Below, in pieces: positions 4,766 through 52,225 of a stretch of DNA of 64,000 nt. Both the position numbers and the translations under genes were made by a program. The stretch's first letter is position 1. Every line of letters starts with the position of its first letter. Source of the DNA: Hexactinellida sp. DTS-2022 (taxonomy: Eukaryota > Porifera > Hexactinellida). Under the pieces are notes generated by a model. The model ran no database searches. It saw only the letters and a program-made list of their open reading frames with translations, and was not told the DNA's origin. The stretch is from NCBI GenBank assembly GCA_028753945.1, contig JAPNXP010000012.1, positions 1,674,001 to 1,738,000 on the forward strand, in the 5' to 3' direction.

Positions 4766-4800
4766 TATTGAAAAGTACTGAGAGCATGCTCAATAGGTAC
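4766..4800. repeat. GAGCATGCTC satellite, left of the Transib-like element
   Basis: One and a half copies of the 22-bp unit (TACTGAGAGCATGCTCAATAGG) directly abut the left TSD of the RAG1-like transposon. The array continues at 10906-10985 on the other side, so the transposon landed inside it. A larger array of the same unit is at 37350-37590. Confidence 0.8.
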
Positions 4801-4805
4801 TGAGA

Positions 4806-4823
4806 CACAGTGGGTTATTATGG
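4806..4823 (+). repeat. Left TIR of the RAG1-like element (heptamer CACAGTG)
   Basis: CACAGTGGGTTATTATGG, identical over 18 bases to the reverse complement of 10888-10905. The left TSD TGAGA is at 4801-4805. This is the transposase recognition end. I see no convincing nonamer at a 12/23 spacing. Confidence 0.92.
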
Positions 4824-6539
4824 CTATTCAGGGGAAATAGGCATTTGCGAGGCAGACAGACCTATCAAATGTATTATTTGCGTATGGGTTATCAACCCTC
4901 TACATTCAATTTACATCACTTAATTTTATGTACCGCTTCAATTTTTTGATTTAATGACGTCATCGTGACATCACATTTACAAAAATATCTATTTAGCTCT
5001 ATAATGTGTTCCTAAATACTTCGAATGCAATGCATATTATTTTCACTCTATTTAAAACATACTACTTCATGCTTTCACGATTCAATATTAACTTTCAAAT
5101 TTTTACTGTGCCGACTATACTATAGTATAGTGGCCCAGTTCTAATCTTACTGCCTTTAATATTATTATTATTATTATTATTACTGTGCCGACTATACTAT
5201 AGTATAGTGGCCCAGTATTAGAATCACTGCCTTTATTTATATTATTATTATTTCTCCGTAGCAGGTGCCCTGGCCACACCTGTATACATAGAGGGCTGAA
5301 ACTTGGCATGTAGATTCGGAGTCGACGTCTAATTTGCACCTGGGGTTACGATTTTGTATTAACAAATTTTTGACACATCTTTAACACCTTTCAAAATTTG
5401 TCTGGTCCATAACTCAAAAAATGTTTTACTAAACCCCAAAATTTTACTTCACATTTGGATTCGCCATAAAATTCTGCGTCTGATGGGAGAAGAAATTTTT
5501 CAATAAAGGGGTCAATTTCTGCCATAAATGGGGGTTGAAATTTCTTTGTTTACTGACACTTCAATTTCAGTAAAGTGTTAAATCTAATTCTATTGTTTCA
5601 ACTTGTAATAATTATATTGATTTAACTTGTTAAATCCTACTCTAGTGATTCAACTTGCGATAATTATATTGATTTAACTTATAAATTCCAGCTGGCTTCT
5701 ATTTAATTTTAGTATTACTATACAATTGATTAAATTAAATAATATAATATAAGGAATTTGTTGACTCAACTCAACCAACCATGGATAACATTGCTAAAAT
5801 AAATAACTAATAATATAATTTATTATCAATACATAATGAATGGCATTAAACTAAAGATGGTTTATGATAGAACCGTTAACATTTTACATTCCACAACAAC
5901 GACAGATAAAGTGATTATATTTATTTCGCGAGAATATTCTTGCACAATTAATGTACTGACGTAATTTATTATAATTTATTCCTTTTGTATTTTACTTATA
6001 GACGGTTCCAATTGGATTATTGGGGTTATCGAGTGCGCTGAATTCAAATATGATAGTGAAATTCGATTTAAATTAATAATAAGTGCAAATAATTGAACTT
6101 TATTTATTTTGCTGTACATAATAATGATGTTAAATTATTAATTTATTAATTAAATATTTATACTAATTAGCTAAATTTCATTAATCTCAGAGATGATACA
6201 AGATAGAAACAAACTTTCAATTTATCAATTGGTCCTTATGCCACGTACCACCTATACAAGTGAGTCTTGACACCTTGAGGTGATGATGACATCGTCAAAA
6301 AAATGTATTTTTACAATTTTGTGAATTCGATATTTAAAATGGGTTATTTGAAGTTGGGTGAAGACCCAACACTCACATAAAAAATGCTGAGTCATCAGCT
6401 ATTATATTCTACTCAAACTTGAATATCTCTAAAATGAAGTGAACTAAATGGAAACTTCCGCCACTCTAAGGGTCGATGCCTTCTGTAACACCTTTTGATA
6501 TATTTTAACACCTTCATAGTGATGATGACATAGCGAAAA

Positions 6540-6660
6540 AAAATCCAAAATTGCAGCTGTGCTGACAGCATGTCCCATTGGAGGCACTATCAATAAACCA
6601 CCACCAAAATATAGTGCCACCAAAGGAACATGCGTCGGCACAGCTGCAATTTTGGATTTT
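6540..6660. repeat. Foldback hairpin, about 120 bp
   Basis: The arms are AAAATCCAAAATTGCAGC and its complement, followed by imperfectly paired GCATGT(C/T)CC(A/T)TTGG and CCACCAAA segments around a centre near ATCAATAAACC. Seven more hairpins of the family lie at 23.5-30.8 kb, plus one at 7995-8128. Confidence 0.8.
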
Positions 6661-7994
6661 TTTTTCTCCGTAGACGGTGCCCTGGCCAGAGCTTTGGAGT
6701 TGATGGGCTAAAACTTGGCATGTAGGTGCGGTTGGACCGTCTAATTTGCACCTGGGGTTACGATTTTTGATCAACAAATTTTGGACACATTTTTGACACC
6801 TTTCAAAATTTGTCTGGTCCATAACTAAAAAGATGTTTTACTAAACCCCCAAATTTTATTTCATATTTGGATTCACCATAAAATTCTGCGTCTGATGGGA
6901 GAATAAATTTTTCAATAAAGGGGTCTATTTCTGCCATAAATGGGGGTTGAAATCTCTTTGTTTACTCACACTTCAATTTCAGTAAAGTGTTAAATCTAAT
7001 TCTATTGTTTCAACTTGTAATAATTATATTGATTTAACTTGTTAAATCCTACTCTAGTGATTCAACTTGCGATAATTATATTGATTATATTGTTAAATCC
7101 TACTCTAGTGATTCAACTTGCGATAATTATATTGATTTAACTTATAAATTCCAGCTGGCTTCTATTTAATTCTAGCATTACTATACAATGGATTAAATTA
7201 AATTAATTTATATAAGGAATTTGTTGACTTTACTCAACTCACCGTGGATAACATTGCTAAAATAAATAACTAATAATTTAATTTATTATCAATAAGTAAT
7301 GAATGGCATTAAACTAAAGATGGTTTATGATAGAACCGTTAACATTTTACATTCCACAACAACGACAGATAAAGTGATTATATTTATTTCGCGAGAATAT
7401 TCTTGCACAATTAATGTACTGACGTAATTTATTATAATTAATTCCTTTTGTATTTAACTTATAGACGGTTCCAATTGGATTATTGGGGTTATCGAGTGCG
7501 CTGAATTCAAATATGATAGTGAAATTCGATTTAAATTAATAATAAGTGCAAATAATTGAACTTTATTTATTTTGCTGTACATAATAATGGTGTTAAATTA
7601 TTAATTTATTAATTAAATATTTATACTAATTAGCTAAATTTCATTAATCTCAGAGATGATACAAGATAGAAACAAACTTTCAATTTATCAATTGGTCCTT
7701 ATGCCACGTACCACCTATACAAGTGAGTCTTGACACCTTGAGGTGATGATGACATCGTCAAAAAAATGTATTTTTACAATTTTGTGAATTAAATAATTCG
7801 CATGGGTTGGTTGGAGTTGGGTGAATACCCAATACGCACTTTAAAAATGCTGAGTCATCACAGATTATATTCTACTGAAAACTGAATATCTCTCAAATGA
7901 AGTGAGCTAAATGGAAACTTGCACCACTCTAAGGGTCGTTGCCTACTGAAGCACCTTTCTGAAATAATTTAACACCTTCATAGTGATGATGACT

Positions 7995-8128
7995 AGGCGA
8001 AAAAAAATCCAAAATTGCAGCTTGTGCCGACAGCATGTTCCTTTGGAGGCACTATCAATAAATCACCACCAAAATATAGTGCCACCAAAGGAATATGCGT
8101 CGGCACAGGCTGCAATTTTGGATTTTTA
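7995..8128. repeat. Foldback hairpin, about 120 bp
   Basis: Same family as 6540-6660. It ends 24 bp from the stop codon of the RAG1-like transposase, so the 3' end of that transcript would run into this hairpin. Confidence 0.8.
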
Positions 8129-8151
8129 TTATTAATATCATAGATACTAAA

Positions 8152-10284
8152 CTAAGGAATATATTTGAAGAGCAATGAATCCAAAAGTTTGTCCTGATCC
8201 AGTGAAGCCACTTTATCTCCTTTGCACTTCTCCTTCCTGATATGCCCTATTTCTCCGCAACGTTTGCACACTAAAACTCTACGGTAACTTGAAAAGAGAG
8301 GGTCACTCTGACTAAGAAGTCTAACAAAAACATCTCTGATGTTTAAGGAAAATGAATTTTTTCTTGAAAGGTGTTCACGATAGCGCCTTATTAGCTTATT
8401 ACAAGCTTCTACAGCCTCTTCTGAATATTCTTTCAGTCCATAACCGTCATTGCAATCACGGATTAATTCTGTGGAATGAGCTAAAACCTTATGCAATGAA
8501 GGGGTAATACTTGCCCATGGGAAGGCTGTTAAAATTAGCTCGTAAGTCTGTTTGCAAAGGACATCCATTTTTTCTGTTTCTACCTCCTGGCTACTGTTAA
8601 AAACTCGTAAGATAACTGATAGATTCATTTGAATGATTGCAATCTGCTCTCTAACGTCTGCCGGAATTAGACAGAATACCCATGTGATAAAATCATTTTT
8701 ATTGGAAAAACATTGCCTAGAAATATTCCCTGTTGAAGTAGTACCGCCTTGAGGTGTTGGCTGATCTATTCGAAGGCCAGTTTTTTCAAAGAGAAATTCA
8801 GAACAAAACTTTTTCGCTGTTTCGATTGGTTTTGAAGTAGGCGACCATACTCTCCTTCCAGACTTTAAATGATAAACAAGGAGCATGAACCAATGGAAGA
8901 CACAAGTATAGCTATGTAAAGGCGACGCCGACAGTATGTTTATATCGGATAGTGGTTCATGAGTGATACCTAACCTATCAGCATGAGGAAGTGATAAATA
9001 TTCATCCGCATCCACGTAATTGAACAGTTCTTTTGCATCTGCTATGTGCCTATTAATAGGGAATCCGGCCCTGACTAATTCTAGATCTTTTAATTCGTGT
9101 TTATGTGCAGTACATAACTGACACGATGCGCCACCAGCTCCGCTTAGAATACCAGACATCTTCCCATCGAGCATACTACGGCTGATTTTAACACGAACAA
9201 CACCTTCAGGAAACTTTATTCCTTCTTGCTCAATGACTGATACTTCTGGATTAATGAAATTAGTCATAATGAATTTAACGTTCTCATAACATTCTTTCTG
9301 GGCCAATAATACAACTGGTCTTACGCCAAATGAAGAATTAGGTGAGTAGTTTTTCCATATTTGCATGTTACTCGAGTTGTGTATGGATAAAATTTTGAAT
9401 GCGAATAAGATAAAAAATTTCGAACTTGGGGTTGGATTGAGTTGGTAATGATTATAAATCTGATGACAACCAGAACCATCGAGGCCGTCAGCAATTTTTA
9501 CTGATAAAGGGAATTCAAAATCAAGGATCGGAGGTAATGTTTGAAATAGACGTAATAAACTCTGGAATAAAATCCTTCTATAAGATAGTGAGATCCCGAT
9601 AGTAACATTATGGACATTGTTTACATAGGTTAACTCGTTAACTAGAACGGCATCCTTACGATATTCAGCAAGTTTAGAATAAGATGGAAATATTATGTCC
9701 TCTGATTTACAAATTAACCGAAAAGATGTATATTTTTGCTTACCAATTTCGAGAAGATCAAGCAAGAACGTTGATTTATCTATGGACATAATTTTCGATT
9801 TATCTGCAAATGTCCCCTTTGAAATGATTTCCTTGCAGAAGTTTGCCGTGCTTACATCCTTAGTCTCGTTAGAAATAAGTTGAAGCGCTTGAGCGGCTAT
9901 GGTTTTGGCACTAACATCCTCTTTCTCAGCTATTTGACGGATTAGTTGCAATACTGGCGCTAATCTAGTTCTCAATCCCTTGAGGGTTAACTTTGATAAG
10001 TCCTTTCGTATTTCTGCTGATAAGTCAACGGTAAAGATTGCATTGTCAGCTGAAGGTATTTTCGCAGGTTGTTTAACTCTAGGAGAGTAAAACATCAACT
10101 CCTCCCAGGTGCATAAATTACTTTTCTTTACAAAGCTCTCTCTTCCCGATTTGAGATCGCGAAACTTTCGAGTAATGAAATGAAATTCGCTATCCGGCTG
10201 TTGGAATATGTTAAGTAATTCCTCAGAAGCAGCTCTGATTGATGGTTTAGAGTTTAAAAGTTTAAAAGCCTCTTTGTTATTCAT
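8152..10284 (-). CDS. Transib/RAG1-like DDE transposase
   Basis: This is an open 710-codon frame from ATG to TAG, lying between matched TIRs, so it probably encodes the enzyme that cuts and pastes the element. Two aspartates and a glutamate align with the RAG1 triad D600/D708/E962: D266 in KIADGLDG, D373 in SMLDGK, and E626 in SEEAVEACNK. The RAG1 zinc site (C727, C730, H937, H942) is matched by C388 and C391 (GGASCQLC) and H598 and H603 (SLHKVLAH), with the same spacings inside each pair. Residues 598-668 follow the RAG1/Transib C-terminus closely (HKVLAH, NKLIRRYRE, DVFVRLLSQSDP). A tail at 673-687 has CX2CX3GHX5C, like the CCGHC tail reported for ProtoRAG RAG1-like proteins. RING and other N-terminal RAG1 domains are absent. 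No intron or frameshift is visible. Exact placement within Transib versus RAG1-like is unresolved. Confidence 0.9.
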   Translation of the reverse strand: MNNKEAFKLLNSKPSIRAASEELLNIFQQPDSEFHFITRKFRDLKSGRESFVKKSNLCTWEELMFYSPRVKQPAKIPSADNAIFTVDLSAEIRKDLSKLTLKGLRTRLAPVLQLIRQIAEKEDVSAKTIAAQALQLISNETKDVSTANFCKEIISKGTFADKSKIMSIDKSTFLLDLLEIGKQKYTSFRLICKSEDIIFPSYSKLAEYRKDAVLVNELTYVNNVHNVTIGISLSYRRILFQSLLRLFQTLPPILDFEFPLSVKIADGLDGSGCHQIYNHYQLNPTPSSKFFILFAFKILSIHNSSNMQIWKNYSPNSSFGVRPVVLLAQKECYENVKFIMTNFINPEVSVIEQEGIKFPEGVVRVKISRSMLDGKMSGILSGAGGASCQLCTAHKHELKDLELVRAGFPINRHIADAKELFNYVDADEYLSLPHADRLGITHEPLSDINILSASPLHSYTCVFHWFMLLVYHLKSGRRVWSPTSKPIETAKKFCSEFLFEKTGLRIDQPTPQGGTTSTGNISRQCFSNKNDFITWVFCLIPADVREQIAIIQMNLSVILRVFNSSQEVETEKMDVLCKQTYELILTAFPWASITPSLHKVLAHSTELIRDCNDGYGLKEYSEEAVEACNKLIRRYREHLSRKNSFSLNIRDVFVRLLSQSDPLFSSYRRVLVCKRCGEIGHIRKEKCKGDKVASLDQDKLLDSLLFKYIP

Positions 10285-10887
10285 TCTATAATATCAACAG
10301 TCAAACAATGTTAAAATTTGATCAATTTTGAATTTTTATATTTTAAACATTTTAAGAAATTTATTAGTGACTTCTAGAAAATTGGGCAGAAGGGCCTCGG
10401 GGCGGCTTGGTGCGGTCCGATAAAATATACCAAATTAAAGTTAAACCAATTAGCTATCATAATAAAAATTAAAAACATCTGCTCACGACTGCTCACCAAT
10501 ATTTTTCACACTAAATAGGCAAAATAATTGTGTCCGATTATTGTTCAACATCATTGAGAGTACACAGAAAATTTTCAGAGAATTTGCTTACGACTCTCTC
10601 TTCGTATATTTATATACTAGCATAAATGTCAAAGGAATAAGAATATCATATCCGCCTTTACGTTGCTATGTAATTAAATATCAATTTATAAATAGAATCC
10701 AACAGTTGTGAAACATCAAACTTTCACTATGAAAATTGTTTATCAAGTTAGTAATTAATCAACACACAAGTGAAGAACCTGAAGTACTATGACAATGAAA
10801 AGTTGGATTTATAGGTTTTAGACAATGCGAAATAAGAATATAATAATATCAAAGCCATTCAGGAGTTTGAAAAATTACACTAATTCC
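10285..10887. other. 5' region of the RAG1-like element
   Basis: About 600 bp between the transposase ATG and the right TIR, presumably holding its promoter and 5' untranslated region. It is AT-rich apart from a short GC-rich patch near 10386-10425. I see no gene or clear promoter motif. Confidence 0.4.
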
Positions 10888-10905
10888 CCATAATAACCCA
10901 CTGTG
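10888..10905 (-). repeat. Right TIR of the RAG1-like element
   Basis: Read on the minus strand it is CACAGTGGGTTATTATGG, identical to the left TIR over 18 bases. After that the two ends diverge. The right TSD TGAGA is at 10906-10910. Confidence 0.92.
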
Positions 10906-10990
10906 TGAGAGCATGCTCAATAGGTACTGAGAGCATGCTCATTAGGTACTGAGAGCATGCTCATAATACTGAGCATGCTCTCAGTACTTA
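10906..10990. repeat. GAGCATGCTC satellite, right of the RAG1-like element
   Basis: Three units of about 22 bp (TGAGAGCATGCTCAATAGGTAC type), then an inverted copy (GAGCATGCTCTCAGTACTTA). The right TSD copy of the transposon forms the start of the first unit, showing insertion into a pre-existing array. Confidence 0.8.
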
Positions 10991-14569: not shown

Positions 14570-15550
14570 TTAGTTCTTGAATTTTTTAAGTTTAGAATTG
14601 TCGTGACCTAAAACCATCGCATTATAAGTCTTGACTTTATTGGAAAGTAAACAATTAGAAAGAGTCACAAATAATTTCTGCAATATATCCCAACGTGACA
14701 TGCTACAATCACACCAAACCCTCCACATATGATCATACTTTGTTTCTGTCCTTATACAAGCTAACTGAACAAGTTTTGTACGAGACGAACCAGTATAAAA
14801 GTTCTCAAACAGCTGTTTTCGACTGTCGATTTTACTAAATATGTCATATATAATTTTTGCAATATCGATTACACAAGTCGATGGGTATTTCATAGAACCT
14901 CTATCCAACAATTCTATTAGTCTAAACTGATTACCAATGTCATCGTTAACCTGTATGGATTTTTCAGTCGTAAGAAAGTCTCTACACATTGGACAGCCAT
15001 TTGATTTATTTAGGTATGAAAAAACTGCATAACCTGCCACAAATGCGAGGCACTCAACTTGAGAAATAGCTATTTCTGGAAGGGTGAACTGTTCTAAATT
15101 TGTAATAAGTTTTTCTAATTCAAAATTTGAGTCCTCGCCATCATCAGCAACACTAGAAAAGGTACTCAAATATTCCATGAGAGTAGGTTTATGAATGGTA
15201 TCAGATTTAGTTTTGATGTCAAATAATTTTAGTATGTTAGAGAGTTGTAATCTGCGTTCGGATTCTAGGATTTGGCTATTGGAGATTTGATAGTGGGAAC
15301 CTGACATTTGTCTATACAAACCAAAATGATGTTCTAAAGGATCGTTTTGTATCCTTGATGTCAACAGGTACTGGAAACCATATTTGGTACAAAGCATATC
15401 AACAAGCAAGGGCAGTGCGTTGCAAGTGTGTTTCAGACTTGTGAATGTCTGAGGTGACAGTTTTCCTTTAACAGTGGGAAGGTCTTTCCAACAGTCTAAC
15501 CAGTTAACTACATTTCGTAGGAACAAGATTCGAGAGTCGTCTGGAGATAG
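14570..15550 (-). pseudogene. P-like transposase, C-terminal part
   Basis: This frame continues the P-element-like transposase after the nested element at 15557-17666; its first usable codons encode PLSPDDSRILFLRNVV. The motif RIQNDPLEHHFGLYRQMSG near 15300 corresponds to the C-terminal region of P/THAP9 transposases and should contain the catalytic glutamate (in PLEHHFG). A cysteine pair (CPMCRDF) follows. It stays open to a stop at 14570. It is cut off from its N-terminal part by the insertion and by a frameshift upstream. Confidence 0.8.
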
Positions 15551-15556
15551 AGGTCT

Positions 15557-17666
15557 GTTGCATGGGAAATTGACTCCCCCTTCATATGAACCATGGATAC
15601 TGTATAGGGGAGTCATTTTCCCAGGGGAGTCATTTCCCCATATAAGATCCGTGGAAATATGACTCCCCCCAATTGATTTCAGGATCGTCATCACATTGTA
15701 TACTTACCTTATCTAACACATATTGCACTATTATATTTCTTTGATAAGTATGCAGTAATGTGTAAAATGAAAATGACTTGATCAAAGGCAAGAGGCATAG
15801 TAAGTATTATCACTACTAATCTTGATAATAATTATTTAGATTATTACTTCTGTCTATGTTGTTACTTCTTATATTCTAACTAAGACTATTAGTAACTGTT
15901 GACTCGAAGTTTCATTTCCCAAAATTAGTTAAAAAATGCATACTAGAGAATTAGTTTTTCATGTAAAACGTAAAGTACTGAGTTCAACTTTCCTAAACTT
16001 GTGTGCTTTGAATATTCTTTTAGTTTAGGTAAAAACATGTCGTCATATTTGTACCAAATGTCATTCAGATTCACTATCATGTAGAAGTGATTGCCCAAAG
16101 ATAACGTGAATCCGGCTAGTTTGTAAGCGAGACTTCTAGTACTATCAGGAATATATATCAATTCATCTATATCGTTGGGTTGAAGTGTACAGCTAGTTTC
16201 AGTAAGATGACCAAGTTCCACAATTAATACGGAAGGTATAGCATTGAAAGCTCCTGAGAGTATTTCTAAATTTGATCCAGCTGACTGACATTTGTTACAT
16301 TTCTTAGGTCTCATCTTATTATTAATGGATTCTTGTAAAGTAGAAGCAACAAAGCTAATACTTCCTATCTGTGTTACAGTGGTGAAAGTTGTACAAAAAC
16401 TGTAGTATTGAAGTATAACAGAATAGAGATCATTAGAAATATCTAATTCCCGTAGGATATTGATAATTCTTGATTCGGACCCAAAAAAATCATATTTTGG
16501 CACAATTACGTCATAGGTCACCAAAATGCTAGCCAATCTGGCGATGTAGTCACGAAGTTCGTCAAACTGGCAACGATGTATTAGTGAGATAAAATGTTGG
16601 GATTCCGGATTTAGCGAAATTCCTGTGATTTTTCCTGCTTTCTCTATCATTTCTCGGTATAAACTAATCAATGAAATTATATTGTCAATAGAGCAGGTAT
16701 TTAGGTGCAATATATTATTGTATTCACCTTTCCACTTAGGACATAAGTTTTCCATGTCGGAATTGAAACTATAACTGCATCCTTGAAATGCATCTGGATT
16801 TGTGATTAACTCATGATCACTCGTTTCTTCATTATCAGACTTAATGGCGACTATTTCTGAATTAGAAATGCACTCTAGGACTACCGGCAGTAGGACTGTT
16901 AATGGGTAGCCTCGTTTGTGCGTATCGTTGATTTCTATAAGCTGGGTATCGAGATATTCATTATACCATTCTGAAACTAAGCAGGCGACTTTTTCTTTGA
17001 CTGAATAGTGTACTGAAGTACTTGGATGGAGTGCGATAATATCTATAAACCGAGTGCACTTTGATTTTTCATCAAGTACTTTATGTAATTCAGATAAATA
17101 TGATTTCTCTTTTAGTGCTTGCATAAGTTTAGGCTTCAAATTATTTAGAATTTCATCTTCAACTTCTGAACCATGTGGATTGAGTGGAGCTTCTAAAGTT
17201 TCTCTTCAACCCTTTGTTGTGAACAGAATGTTCGGGGTATTTTTTGTGAAGTAAAAAATCACATATTTCTTGGTATTCAACAGGATCCATTGAATTATTC
17301 AAATTGTATAGAGAAACGCTACTAGATTGCTTTTATCATAGTGGGCAATAAATATAAGAAGTAATAACATAGACAGAAGTAATAATCTAAATAATTATTA
17401 TCAAGATTAGTAGTGATAATACTTACTATGCCTCTTGCCTTTGATCAAGTCATTTTCATTTTACACATTACTGCATACTTATCAAAGAAATAATAGTGTA
17501 ATATGTGTTAGATAAGGTAAGTATACAATGTGATGACGATCCTGAAATCAATTGGGGGAGTCATATTTCCACGGATCTTATATGGGGAAATGACTCCCCT
17601 GGGAAAATGACTCCCCTATACAGTATCCATGGTTCATATGAAGGGGGAGTCAATTTCCCATGCAAC
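15557..17666. mobile_element. Long-TIR transposon nested in the P-like gene, TSD AGGTCT
   Basis: The two ends match as inverted repeats for about 325 bp (15557-15881 and 17342-17666), beginning GTTGCATGGGAAATTGACTC. A perfect 6-bp duplication AGGTCT flanks it (15551-15556, 17667-17672). GACTCCCC motifs repeat within each arm. The 1.46-kb interior carries a minus-strand frame with a ubiquitin-protease-like C-terminus and no recognisable transposase, so the element is probably non-autonomous. I cannot place it in a superfamily; 6-bp TSDs are uncommon. Confidence 0.9.
15943..17290 (-). pseudogene. USP-like (C19-type) protease-like frame inside the nested transposon
   Basis: The main open stretch is 15943-17139 (up to 398 codons; its first codon is TTG, so the true start lies upstream). 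The C-terminal third looks like a ubiquitin-specific protease fold: a CNKCQSAG zinc-type pair, VLIVELGHL, then YKLAGFTLSLGNHFYMIVN with the expected catalytic His, and WYKYDDM. I do not see a USP cysteine box, so activity is doubtful. An in-place ATG at about 17290 (MDPVEYQEICDFLLHKKYPE) begins an N-terminal piece that resembles the start of KRBA2/integrase-like transposon proteins, but it is in another frame; a shift of frame or a missed intron lies near 17208. It may be captured cargo or part of a larger transposon protein. Confidence 0.5.
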
Positions 17667-17713: not shown

Positions 17714-19102
17714 TTAAATTAAACATTTCCAGATGTCATTAATTAACTTCAGAAAATCAACAGTTTGGTTTTGACTTCTACTTTTTCTTTCAAAATTGAG
17801 AGCTAATAGGCCAGCTGAAGTTGATTCGTGAAAAATCTTAAGTGCCAAATTTACATTCTGTCTTTCCAAGCTAGATGGCCAACAAGCTTTGGAAGTTAAT
17901 TTTGGAGCTCGTTTAAAAATGTTGCATCTATCAGATTTGTATAAGGTCCTAATGTCATCAAAAACTGAATAGCATATTGTAGGATACAAAGATTTAGCAA
18001 AATTAACAGTGTAAATTTTGAGGCCTGAAGTATTGATCGATACTCTCAAATGACCCTGAGATTCATCTTCAGCAGATTTATGGTTAGGAATGATACAATC
18101 ATTAAATTTAGGAAAAATAAATACAAATATCTCGTAGTCTTTCAAATTTAACCAATTATTTCGAATTGATTTTAAAATATGGACTATATCAAAAAATAAA
18201 ATAAGGTCTCTATTTGGGTCACAAGGATGTATAACTTCAGGTAGCAGTGTTTTGTGATTTGGGGAAAGAAGTTTATATAAACTGACATTTAGGGGGTAAT
18301 TGTCGGTACAGACAGCATCTACATATAAGTTACAACTTTCAATGTCCGAAATTGTCTTAATAACAATGGGTAATAGTGCAGCAGCAGAGCTAAAACCAAG
18401 AGGGACTAGCCTTACAATGGTAGAGAACTTAGTCATCAAACTAGATACCATTATAGAAAATACAGTGGTGGGTGGGTCTTCCGGATGGTCAATAGAGCCA
18501 ATAATTCTACCACCTTTATAACTAGCATCGCTACGTATATGAACTTCGTCCATCTGAAGTATAACATGCCTCTCTAAATCTTTGAATGTAGATGAAAATT
18601 CCTTAAGTACACTTAAATATTCACTCTCTAGACCAATTGAATTTTTAATTTTGAGTAGATTACGTTCATGAGGGAGATTCAAACAATTTGAGGATTGGAT
18701 TAGCCGAAAACAAGCGGGAGAAATGCCGTGTACCTTGAGGGAAAAAACCTGCGTTGTCACGCTATAACGACGCCCATATTTTGAAATTATTAAATATCTC
18801 AATTGATCAAGTAGAAACATAATCCCAATCTTTGGTAATAAAGGTAAGTTCTCGATTTGGGGTCCCTGAAATTCTATATCTTGATCACTCTGCTCTATTA
18901 GTTCAATGGCACTTTGCAACTCAATAATAGCATTTTCAACATGCGTTTTAACGGAGGGTTGACGTTGGTTGGGTTTGCATTTAGGACTATTAACTGGGAA
19001 TGTTTCAATTTCTACTAACAAAGTCTCAATCTGGCGGATGTCATTAATTTTGTTGAGAGATAAATATATTTGGCGCTTGTGTTGATCAAAACCATTAATC
19101 AA
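17714..19102 (-). pseudogene. P-like transposase, catalytic domain part
   Basis: A 462-codon open stretch with the P-element/THAP9 RNase H-like core: QMDEVHIRSDASYKGG (D185), VDAVCTDNYPLN (D267) and DIVHILKSIRNNWLNL, then the conserved CWPSSLERQNVNLALKIFHE region. It ends in a premature stop just after NDIWKCLI. In the second copy (63.6 kb) the same place reads WSIFNVNWVGKDIRFNN, and here that sequence continues in another frame, so a small indel near 17740 has broken the gene. About 50 bp further on, the nested long-TIR element interrupts it again. Confidence 0.85.
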
Positions 19103-19163
19103 TAAACATTGGTCTATTACAAGTGAACATTGAATCGAAGGTTGGTTATCTAAAGTGGTAATT

Positions 19164-19421
19164 TTAAAAAAACAAGGTGTCAGTGTCGGGTTTGTGGACG
19201 ACCCAACTATTGGAAATATCGATGCAACTCAGCTTATCAACGACATCACTAAGAATACTGATTGAGAACTTATCTATGGTAGATGTATTGTCCACTATGC
19301 TCAGATTGATTGCAGTTTGAACCATTGTCAGCTCTCTATCGTCTCTCGAAATTCTTTTTGTCTTCTCTGTAGTGTTTGTCAAGTAGCTGGGACAGTTCGG
19401 GAATATAGTTGGTACAGCAGT
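19164..19421 (-). pseudogene. P-like transposase, segment after the THAP domain
   Basis: It begins with AVPTIFPNCPSYL, the AVPTIF motif that closes a THAP domain, and runs into KRISRDDRELTMVQTA. The matching part of the second copy is at 61350-61440. It is separated from the rest of the THAP domain by the 521-bp element at 19430-19950. Confidence 0.75.
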
Positions 19422-20841: not shown

Positions 20842-21720
20842 TTTTACTGTGCCGACTATACTATAGCATAGGCGTAGGCTCCGGTAGGGTTGGTGAGGCC
20901 ATGGCCCTACCAATAATTTGTCAAGAGCCATCATCTTCTATTAAGTATGATGCAAGTTAGCATAAATGGCCCTACCAATCCGGGCAATCCCCATCCCGAG
21001 TATACGCCCCTGTATAGTATAGTGGCTCAGTATTGGAATCACTGCCTTTATTATCGATATTATTATTATTACTGTGCAGACTATACTATAGTATAGTGGC
21101 CCAGTATTGAAATCACTGCCTTTATTTTTTACTGTGCCGACTATACTTTAGTATAGTGGCCCAGTATTGAAATCACTGCCTTTATCGATATTATTATTAC
21201 TGTGCCGACTATACTATAGTATAGTGGCCCAGTATTGAAATCACTGCCTTTATTACTGTGCCGACTATACCATAGTATAGTGGCCCAGTATTGGAATCAC
21301 TGCCTTTTTTTTCTATATTATATACTGTGCCGACTATACTATAGTATAATGGCCCAGTATTGGAATCACTGTCTTTATCGATATTATAACTGTGGCAACT
21401 ATACTATAGTATAGTGGCCCAGTTCTAATCTTACTGCCTTGGTTAGTTATTACTGTGCCGACTATACTATAGTATAGTGGCCCAGTATTGGTCTTAGTGC
21501 TTTGGTTAGTTATTATAATAATATAATACTGTGCCGACTATACTATAGTATAGTGGCCCAGTATTGGTCTTAGTGCTTTGGCATATTATTACTGTGCCGA
21601 CTATACTATAGTATAGTGGCCCAGTTCTAATCTTACTGCCTTGGTTATTATTATTACTGTGCCGACTATACTATAGTATAGTGGCCCAGTACTAATCTTA
21701 GTGCTTTGGTATATTACTAT
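20842..21720 (+). repeat. Array of about 11 short palindromic units
   Basis: Consensus unit TACTGTGCCGACTATACTAT continuing AGTATAGTGGCCCAGTATTG plus AATCACTGCCTTTAT, spaced about 55-75 bp apart and separated by TATTATTA-type linkers. Every unit keeps the ACTATAC..GTATAGT palindrome, with point changes (for example CTTTAG near 21150). The first copy is split by the MITE at 20867-21012. Confidence 0.85.
20867..21012. mobile_element. MITE inside a palindromic unit, 5-bp TSD TATAG
   Basis: 146 bp. Ends CATAGGCGTAGGCTCC and, reverse complement, CAGGGGCGTATACTCGG. TATAG is duplicated outside (20862-20866, 21013-21017). Removing the MITE and one TSD copy restores the intact palindrome found in neighbouring units, which supports the borders. 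Related to 850-1212. Confidence 0.8.
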
Positions 21721-21724
21721 TTAT

Positions 21725-23525
21725 TAGTCCGTAGCCACTCCACAGAACAGAGTTTAATTAACTAAGAGCCAAAAATTTCAGTATATGTGTCTCATGGGTT
21801 ACAGATGTGCACCTGGGGTCACGATTTTTGCTTACATTTTTTTGGACACATTTTTGCACCTGTTTAATATTGAAACAGGAACAATAAATTGTACCCGAAA
21901 ATTAAATTTATATGCATTCGATAGAGAATTAAATTCTACACCTTTTCACAGTGCACGAATTTTCAAATTGTACTTAGTTTGTGCCACAATTGAGTTGCAA
22001 GTTTCCTTTGTTTACTAACACTTCAGTTCAATTGAAAGTGTTAAATCTAATTCTATTGTTTCAACTCGTTATTATTATATTGATTCAACTTGTGAGATCG
22101 AGTAGGCTTCTATTTTCCAATTGAAAACTAAGATTCTACATTCCATAACAACGACAGATTATGTGATTATATTTACTTCTGCGAGAATATTATTGCACTG
22201 TTAATTTACTGACGTAATTAATTATAATTAATTAAGTAATATATGACTTAAATAGATGCTCCCAATTTGTTTATTAGGGGTTATCGAGTGTGCGGAATTG
22301 AAATTTGATAGCCAAATTAATTAATTAATTATTTACTAGCCGGGTGCCCGCGCTTCGCCGCGGTTTTCAAATCCACGGGATGTCTTATAATGAGTTTATG
22401 ATTTGAAATATGACGGATATCTAATATGACGGATGTGAAATGTGAAATATGACGGATATGACAGAAGTTAACAATATTGTAACAGTTGTATTAATATTAC
22501 GGGGACCATAGGAATGAGACTATTGAGTATTGACAACTCATTGCAAGCTGAAATTTTATTGGTAAAATCATGTCAGCTAGAGCAAGGGACATTCAATTGT
22601 TGTTTTCTTTCATACACAATTAACCCATTGAATTATAGACCAATAAAACTCGAGTCAGAATAATGTGAAAACTCTGCAATCTGATAGGTCATGGTCGGTA
22701 CCCTCGCAAAGTGTGAAAAATATGCATGTGGTAAATTGCAAACTATGCATTCTATTGACTTTAAAATATCATATTTGGATTCCTCATACACTACAACCTA
22801 GATTGCACGTTTGAAATGTTTTTCTAGCACACTGTGAACTTTTGATAATTCCCATTGAAATGTATGGGAAGGTGGCAAAAAAATCACATATTTCGAGTTA
22901 ACTCCGCGAGAAATGTAGATATCTCTTAAAAATTCCTTATTCAGGGTGGTTGGGTAGCCCCTAAGTGACATACAAAATTTGATTCAGATCTGTTGAGAAC
23001 TCTCAGAGGAGATGTGAGGACATACACACACATACACACACACACACAAACAACTTTATATATATAGATGACAAAATAATTAAACTTAATAAATTTAAGC
23101 TGACATTGAAATTGGTGTTAAATTATAAATAATATTAATAATTATTTATACGAATTAATTAAATATCATAAATCTCGGAGATTATAGAAGATAGAAACAA
23201 ATTTCAAATTTATCAATTGATCCTTATGCCACATAACACCTCTACAAATGGGTCTTGACACCTGGAGGTGATGATGACATCGTCAAAAAAATGTGTTTTT
23301 ACAATTTTGTTAATTCGATATTTAAAATGGGTTAGTTGATGTTGGGTGATGACCCAACACTCACATAAAAAATGCTGAGTCATCAGCTATTATATTCTAC
23401 TCAAACTTGATTATCTCTAAAATGAAGTGAACTAAATGGAAACTTCCACCACTCTAAGGGCGATGCCTTCTGAAACACCTTTTTGAAATAATTTAACTCC
23501 TTCATAGTGATGATGACATGGCGAA
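21725..23525 (+). repeat. Type-B repeat unit split by a Helitron
   Basis: It begins TCCGTAGCCACTCCACAGAA and contains GTCTCATGGGTTACAGATGT, CACTTTCAATTGAAC-like and TTAGGGGTTATCGAGTGTG landmarks shared by all type-B units. It resumes after the Helitron (22336-23068) and ends at a hairpin (23527). About 1.07 kb without the Helitron. The short frame starting at 21785 recurs in each unit with changes and is probably not a gene. Confidence 0.75.
22336..23068 (-). mobile_element. Non-autonomous Helitron
   Basis: On the minus strand it starts TCTATATATATAAAGTTG and ends with a GC-rich hairpin region (GCGGCGAAGCGCGGGC) followed by CTAG. It sits between host A (22335) and T (23069) without a TSD. 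An empty paralogous site is in the window: the unit at 28.98 kb reads ATTATTTATGACAAAAC exactly where this copy carries the insert. TC at the 5' end, a 3' hairpin plus CTRR, and A/T insertion are the standard Helitron features. 733 bp, with a CA microsatellite near the 5' end; no Rep/helicase. Confidence 0.92.
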
Positions 23526-23526
23526 A

Positions 23527-23652
23527 AAAAAATCCAAAATTGCACCCTGTGCCGACGCATGTTCCTTTGGTGGCACTATATTTTGTTGGTTGTTTATTGA
23601 TAGTGCCTCCAAAGGAACATGCTGTCGGCGCAGGCTGCAATTTTGGATTTTT
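23527..23652. repeat. Foldback hairpin
   Basis: Arms AAAATCCAAAATTGCA and complement; the centre has CTTTGGTGGCACTATATTTT and TGATAGTGCCTCCAAAGG. Same family as 6540-6660. Confidence 0.8.
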
Positions 23653-23654
23653 TT

Positions 23655-24360
23655 TCGCCAAGTCATCAACGCCCAAGGTGTGAAGAAGCATTTGTTAATT
23701 GGTCCGAGTCACAAGGAACGGTAGATAAATTTGAAGATTGTTTCTATCTTAAACCATCTTGAGTTTGATGCCATGCATTCATTATGTATTGATAATAAAT
23801 TATATTATTAGTTATTTATATTAGCATTGTTATCCACGGTTGAGTTGAATTAAGTCAACAAATTCCTTATATTATATTATTTTATTTAATCCATTGTATG
23901 GTAAATTAAATAGAAGCCAGCTGCAATTTATAAGTTAAATCAATTTAATTATCGCAAGTTGAATCAATAGAGTAAGATTTAAAAAGTTAAATCAATATAG
24001 TTATTACAAGTTGAAACTATGGAATTAGATTTAACAGTTATACTGAAACTGAAGTGTGAGTAAACAAAGAAATTTCAACCCCCATTTATGGCAGAAATAA
24101 AACTCTTTATTGAAAGTTTTCTTCTCCCATCAGACGCAGAATTTTATGGTGAATCCAAATGTGAAATAAAATTTGGGGGTTTAGTAAAACATATTTTGTG
24201 TTATGGACCAGACAAATTTTGAAAGGTGTTAGAGACGTGTCAAAATTTGTTAATCAAAAATCGTAACCCCAGGTGCAAATTAGACGGTCCCATCGCACCT
24301 ACATGCCAAGTTTCAGCCCATCAACTATAAAGCTCAGGCCAGGGCACCGTCTACGGAGAA
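23655..24360 (-). repeat. Type-A repeat unit, truncated, inverted
   Basis: It matches the type-A units at 5250-8128 in reverse orientation: AACCCCCATTTATGGCAGAA, CTCCCATCAGACGCAGAATT, and an edge GGGCACCGTCTACGGAG. Part of the usual unit is missing at the 23.7-kb side. Confidence 0.65.
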
Positions 24361-24384
24361 GAAAAAAAAATAATAATAATAAAA

Positions 24385-24510
24385 AATCCAAAATTGTAGC
24401 CTGTGCCGACGCATGTTCATTTGGTGGCACTATATTTTGGTGGTGGTCTATTGATAGTGCCTCCAATGGAACATGCTGTCGGCACAGGCTGCAATTTTGG
24501 ATTTTTTTTT
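24385..24510. repeat. Foldback hairpin
   Basis: Same hairpin family, with the right arm GTCGGCACAGGCTGCAATTT. It separates a type-A unit (left) from a type-B unit (right). Confidence 0.8.
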
Positions 24511-25570
24511 CACCAAGTCATCATCACTATAAAGGTGTTAAATTATTTCAGAAAGGTGTTTCAGAAGGCTACGACCCTTAGAGTGGTGGAAGTTTCCATT
24601 TTGCTCACTTCGTTTCAAAGATATTCAAGTTTCAGTAGAATATAATAAGTGATGAATCAGCATTTTTTATGTGAGTGTTGGGTCATCACCCAACTCCAAC
24701 TAACCCATTTTAATAATATAATTCACAAAATTGTAAAAATACATTTTTTTGACGATGTCATCATCACCTCAAGGTGTCAAGATCCACTTGTATAGGTGGT
24801 ACGTGCCATAAGGACCAATTGATTCATTTAAAGTTTGTTTCTATCTTGTATCATTTCTGAGATTAATGAAATTTAGATAATTAGTTTAAATATTTAATTA
24901 ATCTAAGATAATTTAACACCAATATTATTTACATCAAAATAAATTAAGTTCAATTATTTGCTATAATAATTAATTTAAATTTAATTTCACTATCATATTT
25001 GAATTCAGCGCACTCGATACCCTAATAATCTAATTGGAACCGTTTCTCTAAGTTAAACACAGAGCGAATTAATTAGAATTAAATATCTCATGTATCCATT
25101 GTTCAAGAATATTCTGAGCAGAAATAAATATAATCACATAATCTGTTGTTGTTATGGAATGTAAAATCTTAGTTTTCAATTAGAAAATAGAAGCCTACTC
25201 GATCTCACAAGTTGAATCAATGTAATTATCACAAGTTGAAACAATAGAATTCGATTTAACACTTCAATTGAACTGAAGTGTTAGTATACAAAGGAAACTT
25301 GCAACTCAATTGTGGCACAAACGAAACTCAATTTAAAAATTCGTGCACTGTGAAAAGGTGTAGAATTTAATTCTCTATCGAATGCATATAAATTAAATAT
25401 TTGTGCACTATTTATTGTTCTTTTTCTAATATTAAACAGGTGCAAAAATGTGTCCAAAAAAATGTAGTAAAAAATCGTGACCCCAGGTGCACATCTGTAA
25501 CCCATGAGACACCTGTCCTGAAATTTTGGGTTCTTAGTTAATTAAACTCTGTTCAGTGGACGATCTACGG
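24511..25570 (-). repeat. Type-B repeat unit, inverted
   Basis: About 1.06 kb, in reverse orientation relative to 28372-29445. Landmarks: GGTGTTAAATTATTTCAGAA at its left, GTAACCCATGAGACACCTGT near 25500, CTCTGTTCAGTGGAC at the right edge. The middle part differs more from its neighbours and resembles type A. Confidence 0.7.
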
Positions 25571-25587
25571 ACCAAAAATAATAATAA

Positions 25588-25715
25588 TAAAATCCAAAAT
25601 TGCAGCCTGTGCCGACGCATGTTCCTTTGGTGGCACTATATTTTGTTGTTGGTTTATTGATAGTGCCTCCAATGATGCATGCTGTCGGCACAGCTGCAAT
25701 TTTGGATTTTTTTTG
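25588..25715. repeat. Foldback hairpin
   Basis: Same hairpin family. The arm pair AAATCCAAAATTGCAGC and complement is intact. Confidence 0.8.
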
Positions 25716-26780
25716 TTGCCATGTCATCATCACTATGATGGTGTTAAATTATTTGAAAAAGGTGTTACAGAAGGCATCGACCCTTAGAGTGGTGGAAGTT
25801 TCCATTTAGATCACTTAATTTTAGAGATATTCAAGTTTGAGTAGATTATAATAGCTGATGACTCAGCATTTTTTATGTGAGTGTTGGGTGATCACCCAAC
25901 TCCAACCAACCCACTCGCAAAATATTATTCATAAAATTGTAAAAACACATTTTTTTGACGATGTCATCATCACTTCAAGGTGTCAAGACCCATTTGTAGA
26001 GGTGTTACGTGGCATAAGGATCAATTGATAAATTGGAAGTTTGTTTCTATCTCGTATAATCCCTGAGATTTATGATATTTAATTAATTAGTATAAATAAT
26101 TATTAATATATTAATAATTTAACACCATTATTTTGTTCAGCAAAATAAAAGAAGTTCAATTATTTGCAATTATTATTAATTTTAATTTAATTAAATTATA
26201 ATATTTGAATTATGCGCACTCGATAACCCCAATAATCTAATTGGAACCGTCTCTATTAGTTAAACACAGAGCGAATTAATTAGAATTAAATATGTCATGT
26301 ATCCATTGTGCAAGAATATTCACGGAGAAGTAAATATAATCACATAATCTGTCGTTGTTATGGAATGTAAAATCTTAGTTTTCAATTAGAAAATAGAAGC
26401 CTACTCAATCTCACAAGTTGAATCAATATAATAATCACGAGTCGAAACAATAGAATTAGATTTAACACTTTCAATTGAACTGAAGTGTTAGTAAACAAAG
26501 GAAATTTGCAACTCTATTCTGGCACTAACGAAACCCAATTTAAAAATTCGTGCACTGTGAAAAGGTGTAGAATTTAATTATCTATCGAATGCATATAAAT
26601 TAGTTATTCGCGGACTATTTATTGTTCTTTTTCTAGCATTAAACAGGTGCAAAAATGAGGCAAAAAAAATGTTACAAAAAAACGTGACCCCAGGTGCACA
26701 TCTGTAACCCATGAGACACATATCCTGAAAATTTGGGCTCTTAGTTAATAAAACTCTGTTCTGTGGAGAGGATACGGAAG
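25716..26780 (-). repeat. Type-B repeat unit, inverted
   Basis: About 1.07 kb, head to tail with the units at 24511 and 26921 with a hairpin between each. This gives a period of about 1.2 kb, like a satellite. Confidence 0.75.
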
Positions 26781-26792
26781 GAAAATAATAAT

Positions 26793-26920
26793 AATAAAAT
26801 CCAAAATTGCAGCCTGTGCCGACGCATGTCCTTTGGTAGCACTATATTTTGTTGGTTGTTTATTGATAGTGCCTCCAAAGGAACATGCTTGTGGCACAGC
26901 TGCAATTTTGGATTTTTTTT
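26793..26920. repeat. Foldback hairpin
   Basis: Same hairpin family, with small indels in the right arm (CTTGTGGCACAGCTGC). Confidence 0.8.
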
Positions 26921-27990
26921 CGCCAAGTCATCATCACTCTAAAGGTGTTAAATTATTTCAGAAAGGTGTTTCGGAAGGCAACGACCCTTAGAGTGGTGGA
27001 AGTTTCTATTTAGCTCACTTCATTTGAGAGATATTCAAGTTTCAGTAGAATATAATAAGTGATGAGTCAGCATTTTTTATCTGAGTGTTGGGTCATCACC
27101 CAACATCAACTAACCCATTTTAAATATCGAATTAATAAAATTGTAAAAACACATTTTTTTTACGATGTCATCATCACCTCAAGGTGTCAAGACCCATTTG
27201 TAGAGGTGTTACTTGGCATAAGGATCAATTGATAAATTGGAAGTTTGTTTCTATCTTATTTGATTTCTGAGATTTATGATATTTAATTAATTAGTATAAA
27301 TAATAATTAATATTATTTATAATTTAACACCAATTTCAATTTCAACTTACAATTATTAAGTTAAATTATTTTGTCATGAATAATTAATTAATTAATTTGG
27401 TTATCAAATTTAAATTCCGCACGCTCGATAACCCCTAATAAACAAATTATAAGCATTTATATAAGTAATATACTGACTGAATTAATTATATTTAATATAT
27501 TACGTCAGTATATTAACAGTGCAATAATATTCTCGCAGAAGTAAATATAATCACATAATCTGTCGTTGTTGTGAAATATATAATCTTTTTTTTCAATTGG
27601 AAAATAGAAGCCTACTCGATCTCACAAGTTGAATCAATATAATAATAACGAGTTGAAACAATAGAATTAGATATAACACTTTCAATTGAACTGAAGTGTT
27701 AGTAAACAAAGGAAACTTGCAACTCAATTGTGGCACAAACCAAGTACAATTTGAAAATTCGTGCACTGTGAAAAGGTGTAGAATTTAATTCTCTATCGAA
27801 TGCAAATAAATTTAATTTTCGGGTACTATTTATTGTTCCTGTTTCAATATTAAACAGGTCCAAAAATGTGTCCCAAAAAATGTAATAAAAAATCGTGACC
27901 CCAGGTGCACATCTGTAACCCATGAGACACATATCTTGAAAATTTGGGCTCTTAGTTGATAAAACTCTGTTCTGTGGAGAGGATACGGAA
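26921..27990 (-). repeat. Type-B repeat unit, inverted
   Basis: About 1.07 kb. It ends at CTCTGTTCTGTGGAGAGGAT and is followed directly by four palindromic units, the same junction seen at 3.45 kb. Confidence 0.75.
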
Positions 27991-28004
27991 GGAAAATAAT
28001 AATA

Positions 28005-28250
28005 ATAACCAAGGCAGTAAGATTAGAACTGGGCCACTATACTATAGTATAGTCGGCACAGTAATAACCAAGGCAGTAAGATTAGAACTGGGCCACTATA
28101 CTATAGTATAGTCGGCACAGTAATAACTAACCAAGGCAGTAAGATTAGAACTGGGCCACTATACTATAGTATAGTCGGCACAGTAAAAATAATAAAGGCA
28201 GTGATTCTAATACTGGGCCACTATACTATAGTATAGTCGGCACAGTAAAA
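28005..28250 (-). repeat. Cluster of four short palindromic units
   Basis: Four copies of the CACTATACTATAGTATAGTC unit, three of them nearly identical and separated by GGCACAGTAATAACCAAGGC. It marks the switch from inverted to direct type-B units. Confidence 0.85.
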
Positions 28251-28251
28251 A

Positions 28252-28370
28252 CTCCAAAATTGCAGCTGTGCTGACAGCATGTCCCATTGGTGGCACTATC
28301 AATAAACCACCACCAAAATATAGTGCCACCAAAGGAACATGCGTCGGCACAGCTGCAATTTTGGATTTTT
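28252..28370. repeat. Foldback hairpin
   Basis: Same hairpin family. Its core CCACCAAAATATAGTGCCAC is shared with 6590-6620. Confidence 0.8.
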
Positions 28371-28371
28371 T

Positions 28372-29445
28372 TGTTATTAGTCCGTATCCTCTCCACAGAA
28401 CAGAGTTTAATTAACTAAGAGCTCAAATTTTCAGGATATGTGTCTCATGGGTTACAGATGTGCACCTGGGGTCACGATTTTTTATTACATTTTTTTGGAC
28501 ACATTTTTGCACCTGTTTAATATTGAAACAGGAACAATAAATAGTACCCGAAAATTAAATTTATATGCATTCGATAGAGAATTAAATTCTACACCTTTTC
28601 ACATTGCACGAATTTTAAAGTTGTACTTAGTTTGTGCCACAATTGAGTTGCAAGTTTCCTTTGTTTACTAACACTTCAGTTCGATTGAAAGTGTTAAATA
28701 TAAATTCTATTGTTTCAACTCGTTATTATTATATTGATTCAACTTGTGAGATCGAGTAGGCTTCTATTTCCCAATTGAAAATAAGATTCTAGTCATTCCA
28801 TAACAACGACAGATTATGTGATTATATTTCCTTCTGCAAGAATACTCTTGCACTGTTAATATACTGACGTAATTAATTATAATTAATTAAGTCAGTATAT
28901 GACCTATATAGATGCTCCCAATTTGTTTATTAGGGGTTATCGACTGTGCGGGATTGAAATTTGATAGCCAAATTAATTAATTTATTATTTATGACAAAAC
29001 AATTAAACTTAATAAATATAAGTTGACATTGAAATTGGTGTTAAATTATAAATATTATTAACAATTATTTATACTAATTAATTAAATATCATAAATCTCA
29101 GATATCATAGAAGATAGAAACAAACTTTCAATTTATCAATTGATCCTTATGGCACATGCCACCTATACAAGTGGGTCTTGACACCTTGAGGTGATGATGA
29201 CATCGTTAAAAAAATTTTTTGCAATTTTGCTAATTCGATTTTTAAAATTGGTTAGTTGATGTTGGGTGATGACCCAACACCCACATAAAAAATGCTGAGT
29301 CATCAGCTATTATATTCTACTCAAACTTGAATATCTCTAAAATGAAGTGAACTAAATGGAAACTGCCACCACTCTAAGGGTCGATGCCTTCTGAAACACA
29401 TTTTTTGAAATAATTTAACACCTTCATAGTGATGATGACATGATG
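28372..29445 (+). repeat. Type-B repeat unit, direct (reference copy)
   Basis: About 1.07 kb, from TAGTCCGTATCCTCTCCACA to GATGATGACATGATG. It has no TIR and no convincing gene. It holds the Helitron empty site (near 29000) and the GTTGGGTGATGACCCAAC hairpin. Used here as the orientation standard. Confidence 0.75.
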
Positions 29446-29451
29446 AAAAAA

Positions 29452-29632
29452 AATCCAAAATTGCAGCATGTGCCGACAGCTTGTTCCTTTGGAGGCACTA
29501 TCAATAAACCACCACCAAAATATAGTGCCACCAAAGGAACATGCGTCGGCACAGCTGCAATTTTGGATTTTTATTACTGTGCCGACTATGCTATAGTATA
29601 GTGGCCCAGTATTGGTCTTAGTGCTTTGGTTA
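29452..29632. repeat. Foldback hairpin plus one palindromic unit
   Basis: Hairpin 29452-29570, then one palindromic unit with a point change (GACTATGCTATAGTATAGTG) to 29632. Confidence 0.8.
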
Positions 29633-29635
29633 GTT

Positions 29636-30685: not shown

Positions 30686-30691
30686 GCAAAA

Positions 30692-30812
30692 AAATCCAAA
30701 ATTGCAGCCTGTGCCGACAGCATGTTCCATTGGAGGCACTATTAATAACCCACCAACAAAATATAGTGCCACCAAAGGAACATGCGTCGGCACTGGCTGC
30801 AATTTTGGATTT
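30692..30812. repeat. Foldback hairpin, right end of the mosaic
   Basis: Last member of the hairpin family on this side. The sequence beyond 30815 (ATATGGAATCCATAACAAAC) is unrelated, so the mosaic ends here. Confidence 0.8.
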
Positions 30813-37025: not shown

Positions 37026-37349
37026 GGTCATCCCAACTGCTCCCCACACTGCTTCTTTGTTTTCTGTGACATATTCTTTAAAATCGTTGCAACCTAAAAC
37101 GGTTAACCCACTGTTCTAGGTAAAAACTACACCAACAGCTTCATTAGTAGGGACTTAAATCGTTCCAAAGTGTTGGCTAGAATCTCTCTAGCATTTCCTC
37201 TAGTCATAAGTGGCATTTAGACAAAAAATTTGGATTTGAGAACAAGTATGAGAAGTAGAGGAAAAATTGAAGGGGAAAGCATTATGTACTCGTTGGGCAA
37301 AGCCTAATGTACTCATTAAAGGTGTTTATGTAAAGGTGTTTGTGGTTAT

Positions 37350-37591
37350 GAGCATGCTCTCAGTACCTATTGAGCATGCTCTCAGTACCTAATGAGCATG
37401 CTCTCAGTACCTATTGAGCATGCTCTCAGTACCTAATGAGCATGCTCTCAGTACCTATTGAGCATGCTCTCAGTACCTATTGAGCATGCTCTCAGTACCT
37501 ATTGAGCATGCTCTCAGTACCTATTGAGCATGCTCTCAGTACCTATTGAGCATGCTCTCAGTATCTATTGAGCATGCTCTCAGTACTTTTC
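37350..37591 (+). repeat. 22-bp satellite array, about 11 copies
   Basis: Unit GAGCATGCTCTCAGTACCTA plus TT or AT, nearly identical across the array. Each unit contains the GAGCATGCTC palindrome. The same unit flanks the RAG1-like element at 4766-4800 and 10906-10990. The last unit here reads AGTACTTTTC. Confidence 0.95.
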
Positions 37592-52088: not shown

Positions 52089-52225
52089 CTCCAATCTAAT
52101 ATAAATATATGTATTATACACTAATGTACGTCAAAAATTGAAGAGATTAAAATTTCTTCTAATTATTTGCACCCAATAAAGTGTGTACAAGTGCGTTTGT
52201 TTAGAAGAGTTCGACAATAAATTCA

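Follow-up and report, generated by a model that had tools for sequence, protein, structure and literature searches.

We report a complete Transib-type DNA transposon in the genome of a glass sponge. It lies at positions 4806-10905 of the window, by which we mean the whole analysed stretch of 64,000 nt of Hexactinellida sp. DTS-2022 (contig JAPNXP010000012.1, positions 1,674,001-1,738,000). The element combines a homologous transposase, CAC ends, a 5-bp target duplication and a single gene without RAG2L, and belongs to the Transibs rather than to the RAG1-RAG2 transposons; the Transib/RAG1-type interpretation given in an earlier note on this DNA is supported. With high confidence, we regard it as an autonomous cut-and-paste transposon of the Transib superfamily in Hexactinellida, most likely of the lineage 'Subgroup I' (Tao et al. 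2022). The kind of element is known, and the host and the radiation are new.

The element is delimited by identical 18-bp ends starting with CACAGTG (4806-4823 and 10888-10905) and by a perfect duplication of TGAGA (4801-4805 and 10906-10910), and it contains an uninterrupted frame of 710 codons on the minus strand (8152-10284), all as the earlier note had described. That note had also presented 4806-10905 as a complete transposon; its borders hold, and a nested 3.0-kb insert that it left unmentioned makes the element proper about 3.08 kb long. The features of the element and its target are as follows.

4801..4805: target-site duplication, left copy TGAGA (perfect 5-bp duplications in all eight full-length copies)
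4806..4823, plus strand: left terminal repeat CACAGTGGGTTATTATGG, 3' of the transposase gene, the long-spacer end (from the end comparison)
4831..4841, plus strand: second conserved element of the long-spacer end, GGGGAAATAGG (bases 26-36 of the element end)
5099..5105: ATTTTTA, left flank of the nested insert (from comparison with copy L011)
5106..8121: nested 3.0-kb insert of two tandem units (from repeat matches and comparison with other copies)
8122..8128: ATTTTTA, right flank of the nested insert
8152..10284, minus strand: transposase, 710 codons in one open frame, a RAG1/Transib DDE recombinase
8224..8268, minus strand: zinc-knuckle tail CKRCGEIGHIRKEKC, residues 673-687, like CTT*/CTT1 of RAG1L and Subgroup I Transibs
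8929..9072, minus strand: residues 405-452, aligned with the RAG2-binding alpha11-alpha12 of RAG1/BbRAG1L
10879..10889, minus strand: second conserved element of the short-spacer end, GGGGAATTAGT (bases 17-27 from the right end)
10888..10905, minus strand: right terminal repeat, 5' of the transposase gene, the short-spacer end
10906..10910: target-site duplication, right copy TGAGA
10906..10980: 22-bp tandem repeat, the insertion target
37349..37586: second array of the 22-bp repeat with uninterrupted target and four exact 33-base matches

The window copy is 6100 bp long because the nested repeat occupies 5106-8121. The comparison with L011 places this insert outside the transposase gene, on its 3' side, between the two ATTTTTA copies. 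Its two tandem units are about 90% alike, its longest frame is 102 aa, and it is not present in the seven other full-length copies. In the 112.4-Mb assembly of 18 contigs, to which all our genome-wide counts refer, a 1.4-kb piece of the repeat has at least 309 matches. The repeat family, found in the window at 5106-8121, 21013-31000 and 58325-58849, is abundant and non-coding, and is characterized by the palindrome ACTATACTATAGTATAGT, tandem 1.4-kb units and subterminal hairpins.

The element inserted into a 22-bp tandem repeat. The search for an empty site proposed in the earlier note used a 33-mer of the two flanks joined with a single TGAGA, and found it intact in 22-bp arrays: there are 11 matches in the window at three or fewer mismatches, four of them exact, where none is expected. 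Nine fall in the array 37349-37586, which holds an empty-site paralogue with uninterrupted target; one lies at 10919 and the last, at 4770-4802, is the left flank of the window element itself. The unit of this satellite (37349-37586 and 10906-10980) contains the perfect palindrome GAGCATGCTC.

The window family multiplied recently. The genome contains 19 occurrences of its 18-base end and none of the reversed pattern. Sixteen of the 19 ends pair into eight full-length elements, leaving three single ends; the search for further copies suggested in the earlier note has been answered in this way. All eight are flanked by perfect 5-bp duplications (TGAGA, TAGTA, CGCTG, AAATG, CACGA, CAATC, CATGG and CATGG), and the seven other copies, at 3077-3081 bp, are 98.70-99.84% identical to the window copy. 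Such a near-identical family with perfect duplications bears out the earlier description of the element as 'recently mobile'. Since L010 and L012 carry a frameshift at the same codon between different target duplications, a broken copy was, as this suggests, moved by enzyme supplied from another copy.

Judging from sequence, the window element may still be active at present. That it is a dead fossil whose open frame survived by chance we consider unlikely, although several observations point that way: the frame is broken in five of the eight full-length copies, the window copy carries a 3-kb repeat, and replacement and silent changes among the window-family copies are few, with neither a strong bias nor a clear excess of silent changes. 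The insert, however, does not interrupt the gene, and the element has two perfect ends. Moreover, the frame is open in three of the eight copies (710 codons in the window copy and L011, 708 in L009), and the two that have the 710-codon frame in common are 99.84% identical.

The window family is part of a larger radiation. At least 67 transposase matches were found in the genome, a lower bound in which one element may account for several matches; 16 are 95-100% identical to the query and 51 are diverged (41-79%), 21 of the latter being without a stop in the matched stretch. This number in a 112-Mb sponge genome stands against the usual scarcity of autonomous Transibs, for which the available part of Kapitonov and Koonin (2015) gives a typical number of one copy or at most a few.

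The comparison of 8152-10284 with RAG1 and Transib, proposed in the earlier note, revealed a protein homologous to the Transib/RAG1 core, with the DDE residues and a C2H2 zinc site. D266, D373, E626, C388, C391, H598 and H603 each occur at the position given in that note, and all seven are unchanged in the nine full-length relatives selected for alignment. The predicted fold is that of RAG1/Transib, and the core is 27.5% identical to HzTransib, 21.5% to BbRAG1L and 20.3% to RAG1. Outside the catalytic core, the transposase has an N-terminal region resembling the nonamer-binding domain (NBD), a segment (residues 405-452) that aligns with alpha11-alpha12 of RAG1/BbRAG1L and corresponds to a gap in HzTransib, and a zinc-knuckle tail with the spacing C-x2-C-x3-GH-x5-C, the four ligands of which are invariant in the nine aligned relatives.

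The ends were sought as CACNNTG with a 5-bp duplication at 30 loci out of the 67 transposase matches, and an end pair was found in 18. Bases 4-5 of the heptamer, left free in this search, are AG in 35 of the 36 ends, the sole exception being in L046, and CACAGTG pairs with a perfect duplication were found 17 times, as against zero in a shifted control. Five of the 18 loci are window-family copies and the ends of L023 and L047 are nearly those of L022; the end comparison was made on 12 elements. Among these, L030 and L032 have one end in common, and L032 was omitted from the pooled identity.

The ends are bipartite and asymmetric, with a second element, approximately RGGRAATAGG, 9-10 bp deeper at one end than at the other: its first base is at about position 26 of one end and at about position 16-17 of the opposite one. 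The pooled identity of the two ends is 0.594 at an offset of 9 and 0.382 at an offset of 10, as compared with 0.19-0.30 at the other offsets from -5 to 17. In eight of the 12 elements the best match (at least 9/11) occurs at an offset of 9-10, and L046 has an 8/11 match at offset 9; of 3600 base-shuffled ends, 320 reached 9/11 at any offset and 14 at an offset of 9-10. The short-spacer end lies 5' of the gene in all compared elements but L033, the ends of L040 being assigned by likeness to the other elements.

Some observations do not fit this picture of the ends, and count against it. No ends were found at 12 of the 30 loci, one of which is the window itself, where the left end lies beyond the flank that was searched. 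In the window element the second-element match ties between offsets 9 and 0, in L030 the offset is 14 (10 in L032), and no second-element match was found in L040 among the 12 compared elements. In L033 (C14:2913599-2915125) the short-spacer and the long-spacer end have changed places with respect to the gene; this element, 3778 bp long, is possibly rearranged. Asymmetry as such is not new, because insect Transibs with asymmetric and even 12/23-like ends are in print (in the accessible part of PMC8355894).

The assignment to Subgroup I is based on domain and end features, namely an alpha11-alpha12 equivalent, a CTT1-type tail and asymmetric terminal repeats, rather than on a tree including the ctenophore, Hydra and 'bacterial' Transibs, and this is a point against it; the tree built here is unrooted and comprises four groups. 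Other points against the assignments concern the protein. Three of the four other relatives scanned missed the Pfam RAG1 cut-off, and the zinc-knuckle score of the window transposase is under the Pfam cut-off. The spacing in the tail is one residue longer than in the published CTT* motif, Cx2Cx3GHx4C, and the knuckle is altered or missing in P0007, P0021, L031 and L035.

The alpha11-alpha12 segment, the NBD-like region and the zinc-knuckle tail are also found in RAG1L. It is nevertheless very improbable that the element is a RAGL (RAG-like) transposon, in other words a RAG1L element with RAG2 still present or recently lost. In the seven other full-length copies, every frame of at least 150 aa is the transposase or a piece of it, and the window copy has no frame longer than 102 aa besides the transposase. 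We found no convergent RAG1L and RAG2L genes, and the core resembles Transib more than RAG1/RAG1L, with the highest identity to HzTransib as given above. A Pfam RAG2 search of the sponge genome gave no match, but neither did any of its 14 control genomes, and this result carries no weight. That the frame is a domesticated host gene is still less credible: some genomic relatives have long open frames at which ends were not detected, but several near-identical copies have the frame described here enclosed by perfect terminal repeats and perfect duplications, which is the signature of a mobile element.

Among characterized systems, the Transib of Helicoverpa zea (HzTransib; PDB 6pqn and 6pqx) gave the best sequence and fold match, with a similar DDE core and zinc site. 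According to the literature it also has only one gene, ends of the CAC type and target duplications of 5 bp. In contrast to the sponge transposase, HzTransib does not have the alpha11-alpha12 segment; the fold match begins at model residue 163, with the NBD-like part unmatched in that chain, and the HzTransib ends are described as symmetric in the available text of PMC8289069, whereas those of the sponge element are asymmetric. Subgroup I Transibs, known from ctenophores, Hydra and 'Candidatus Thioglobus' and proposed as the ancestors of RAG (Tao et al. 2022, PMC9435367), resemble the sponge element in the alpha11-alpha12 equivalent, the CTT1-type tail and the asymmetric ends, as compared by their published description (PMC9435367). 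For this lineage, glass sponges represent a new host class. As far as the accessible part of PMC8355894 goes, Transib5 of D. melanogaster and Transib2 and N1-N3 of Anopheles have 12/23-like ends without RAG2, and the heptamers and nonamers of some insect Transibs match recombination signal sequences (RSSs). These insect ends have a nonamer at 12/23 spacing, whereas the sponge ends have the RGGRAATAGG-like element shifted by 9-10 bp.

AanRAGL of Aureococcus and ProtoRAG of amphioxus resemble the sponge element in their CAC ends and bipartite asymmetric terminal repeats, but carry RAG2L. The published spacers of AanRAGL (4/13) differ by 9 bp, similar to the sponge offset, and BbRAG1L has a tail zinc knuckle, as does the sponge transposase. 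ProtoRAG, in the part of its description available to us, has the heptamer CACTATG and spacers of 27/31, in contrast to CACAGTG in the sponge. The sponge heptamer is identical to the consensus heptamer of vertebrate RSSs as given in the available text of PMC8289069; the accessible part of PMC8355894 gives a different 'most common' heptamer for human immunoglobulin loci. Vertebrate RAG1 has the active site, the zinc ligands and the fold in common with the sponge transposase, but acts together with RAG2, and its core identity is the low value given above. In the 12/23 RSSs of vertebrates, as in the sponge element, two types of ends differ by about one helical turn. The nonamer of V(D)J RSSs is ACAAAAACC, at 12/23 spacing; the comparison of the sponge ends with RSSs given here concerns the heptamer and the difference between the two end types.

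We infer that the transposase catalyzes cleavage with hairpin formation, and that the asymmetry has a role in the pairing of the ends. A transposase dimer would bind both ends of the element and read the CACAGTG heptamer together with the second element, which at the 3' end is set further in, by 9-10 bp or roughly one helical turn, than at the 5' end; sequence contacts would be made by the N-terminal NBD-like region and the zinc-knuckle tail. The active site formed by D266, D373 and E626 would nick the DNA 5' of the heptamer and then make a hairpin-forming cut on the flank, and the freed ends would be joined to the target with a 5-bp stagger.

The sponge Transibs combine the vertebrate RSS heptamer, two-spacer ends and the part of RAG1 on which RAG2 docks, with no RAG2 in the element. 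The earlier note had called the element useful for the origin of V(D)J recombination, and we agree. The intact genes of the young window family make it testable whether the pairing of ends with two different spacers functions in the absence of RAG2, and which role the RAG2-binding surface of RAG1 played before there was RAG2.

In three protein searches, every hit with an organism name came from the glass sponge Oopsacas minuta (8 of 49, 1 of 9 and 11 of 86 hits), in keeping with a hexactinellid host. The same transposase family is present in O. minuta, where LOD99_13307 and other proteins are 39-61% identical over the aligned part. These database entries are mostly partial and carry automatic names, including 'V(D)J recombination-activating protein' and 'Dna-mediated transposase'. 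Because they were already named automatically, sponge Transib sequences are not unknown, and apparently just undescribed. We found no paper that contains both Transib and Hexactinellida, subscription papers and Repbase being outside the scope of the search, and no description of a sponge Transib among the papers judged by their titles and the beginnings of their abstracts. Neither 'Transib' nor 'RAG1' occurs in the main text of the O. minuta genome paper or of that on Aphrocallistes vastus, according to a term search.

The sponge family also bears on the proposed bacterial ancestry of RAG. The RAG/Transib tree has been rooted on bacterial Transibs, one of which is from Candidatus Thioglobus (Tao et al. 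2022, PMC9435367). We scanned prokaryote species with the sponge profile, using two peptide patterns and contigs of at least 3 kb, and one of 23 pattern stretches was confirmed: L049 (JABAAK010000070.1, 1-3260), a 3,260-bp contig of a 'Candidatus Paceibacter' metagenome-assembled genome (MAG), 77% identical over residues 436-466. In 379 genomes of the phylum of this MAG, the search gave this contig and one 21-bit match with two stops. Against the sponge genome the contig gave 46 matches, located at both of its ends and in one inner stretch; its GC content is 35.6%, and frames of at least 100 aa cover 21% of it. A second contig of the MAG (29.8% GC, 93% frame cover) gave no match to the sponge genome, and a third has 28.5% GC and 60% frame cover. 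Because of its sponge matches, unlike the second contig, and its differing GC content and frame cover, L049 is probably DNA of a sponge host that contaminates the genome of a prokaryote species. The matches cover about 590 of the 3,260 bases, and the rest of the contig is without a sponge match.

A wider hypothesis, which we put forward tentatively and consider rather doubtful, is that glass sponges are the richest reservoir of ancestral, RAG-ready Transibs, that the published 'bacterial Transib' is host DNA of a sponge or another animal binned with a bacterium, and that the ancestry of RAG is animal or early eukaryotic and not bacterial. By RAG-ready we mean the exact V(D)J heptamer, a second element offset by about one turn, a RAG2-docking segment without RAG2, and the NBD and tail as DNA readers. 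The hypothesis is weakened because most of the L049 contig has no sponge match. The 'Candidatus Paceibacter' MAG is not named in the available main text of the Vazella paper, a link to Vazella being conjectural, and a term search of the Bathydorus microbiome paper did not find 'Thioglobus'. L049 does not show the published case to be contamination; it nevertheless shows a route by which an animal Transib can pass for a bacterial one, and is a reason why the bacterial ancestor proposed for RAG should be looked at again.

Other features were observed elsewhere in the window. At 17717-19228 on the minus strand and 62796-63722 on the plus strand lie two frames resembling transposases, in which Pfam TNP-like domains of the RNase H and the GTP-binding insertion type were recognized. 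Each has two Pfam hits, one of them under the cut-off; we take both frames to be of the P-element/THAP9 type. Further pieces of the former may be present at 14573-17205 (minus strand), which gave no Pfam hit. Two consecutive frames at 38130-39542 (plus strand), the first with DUF4371, are presumably hAT/ZMYM-like. Two genes, each a single uninterrupted frame on the minus strand, are neighbours, in a compact genome: an SNF2-family helicase gene (48753-52130, 1126 aa) and an importin-like gene (53126-56200, 1025 aa), the product of which is 79% identical to an O. minuta protein and 94% identical to another database protein.

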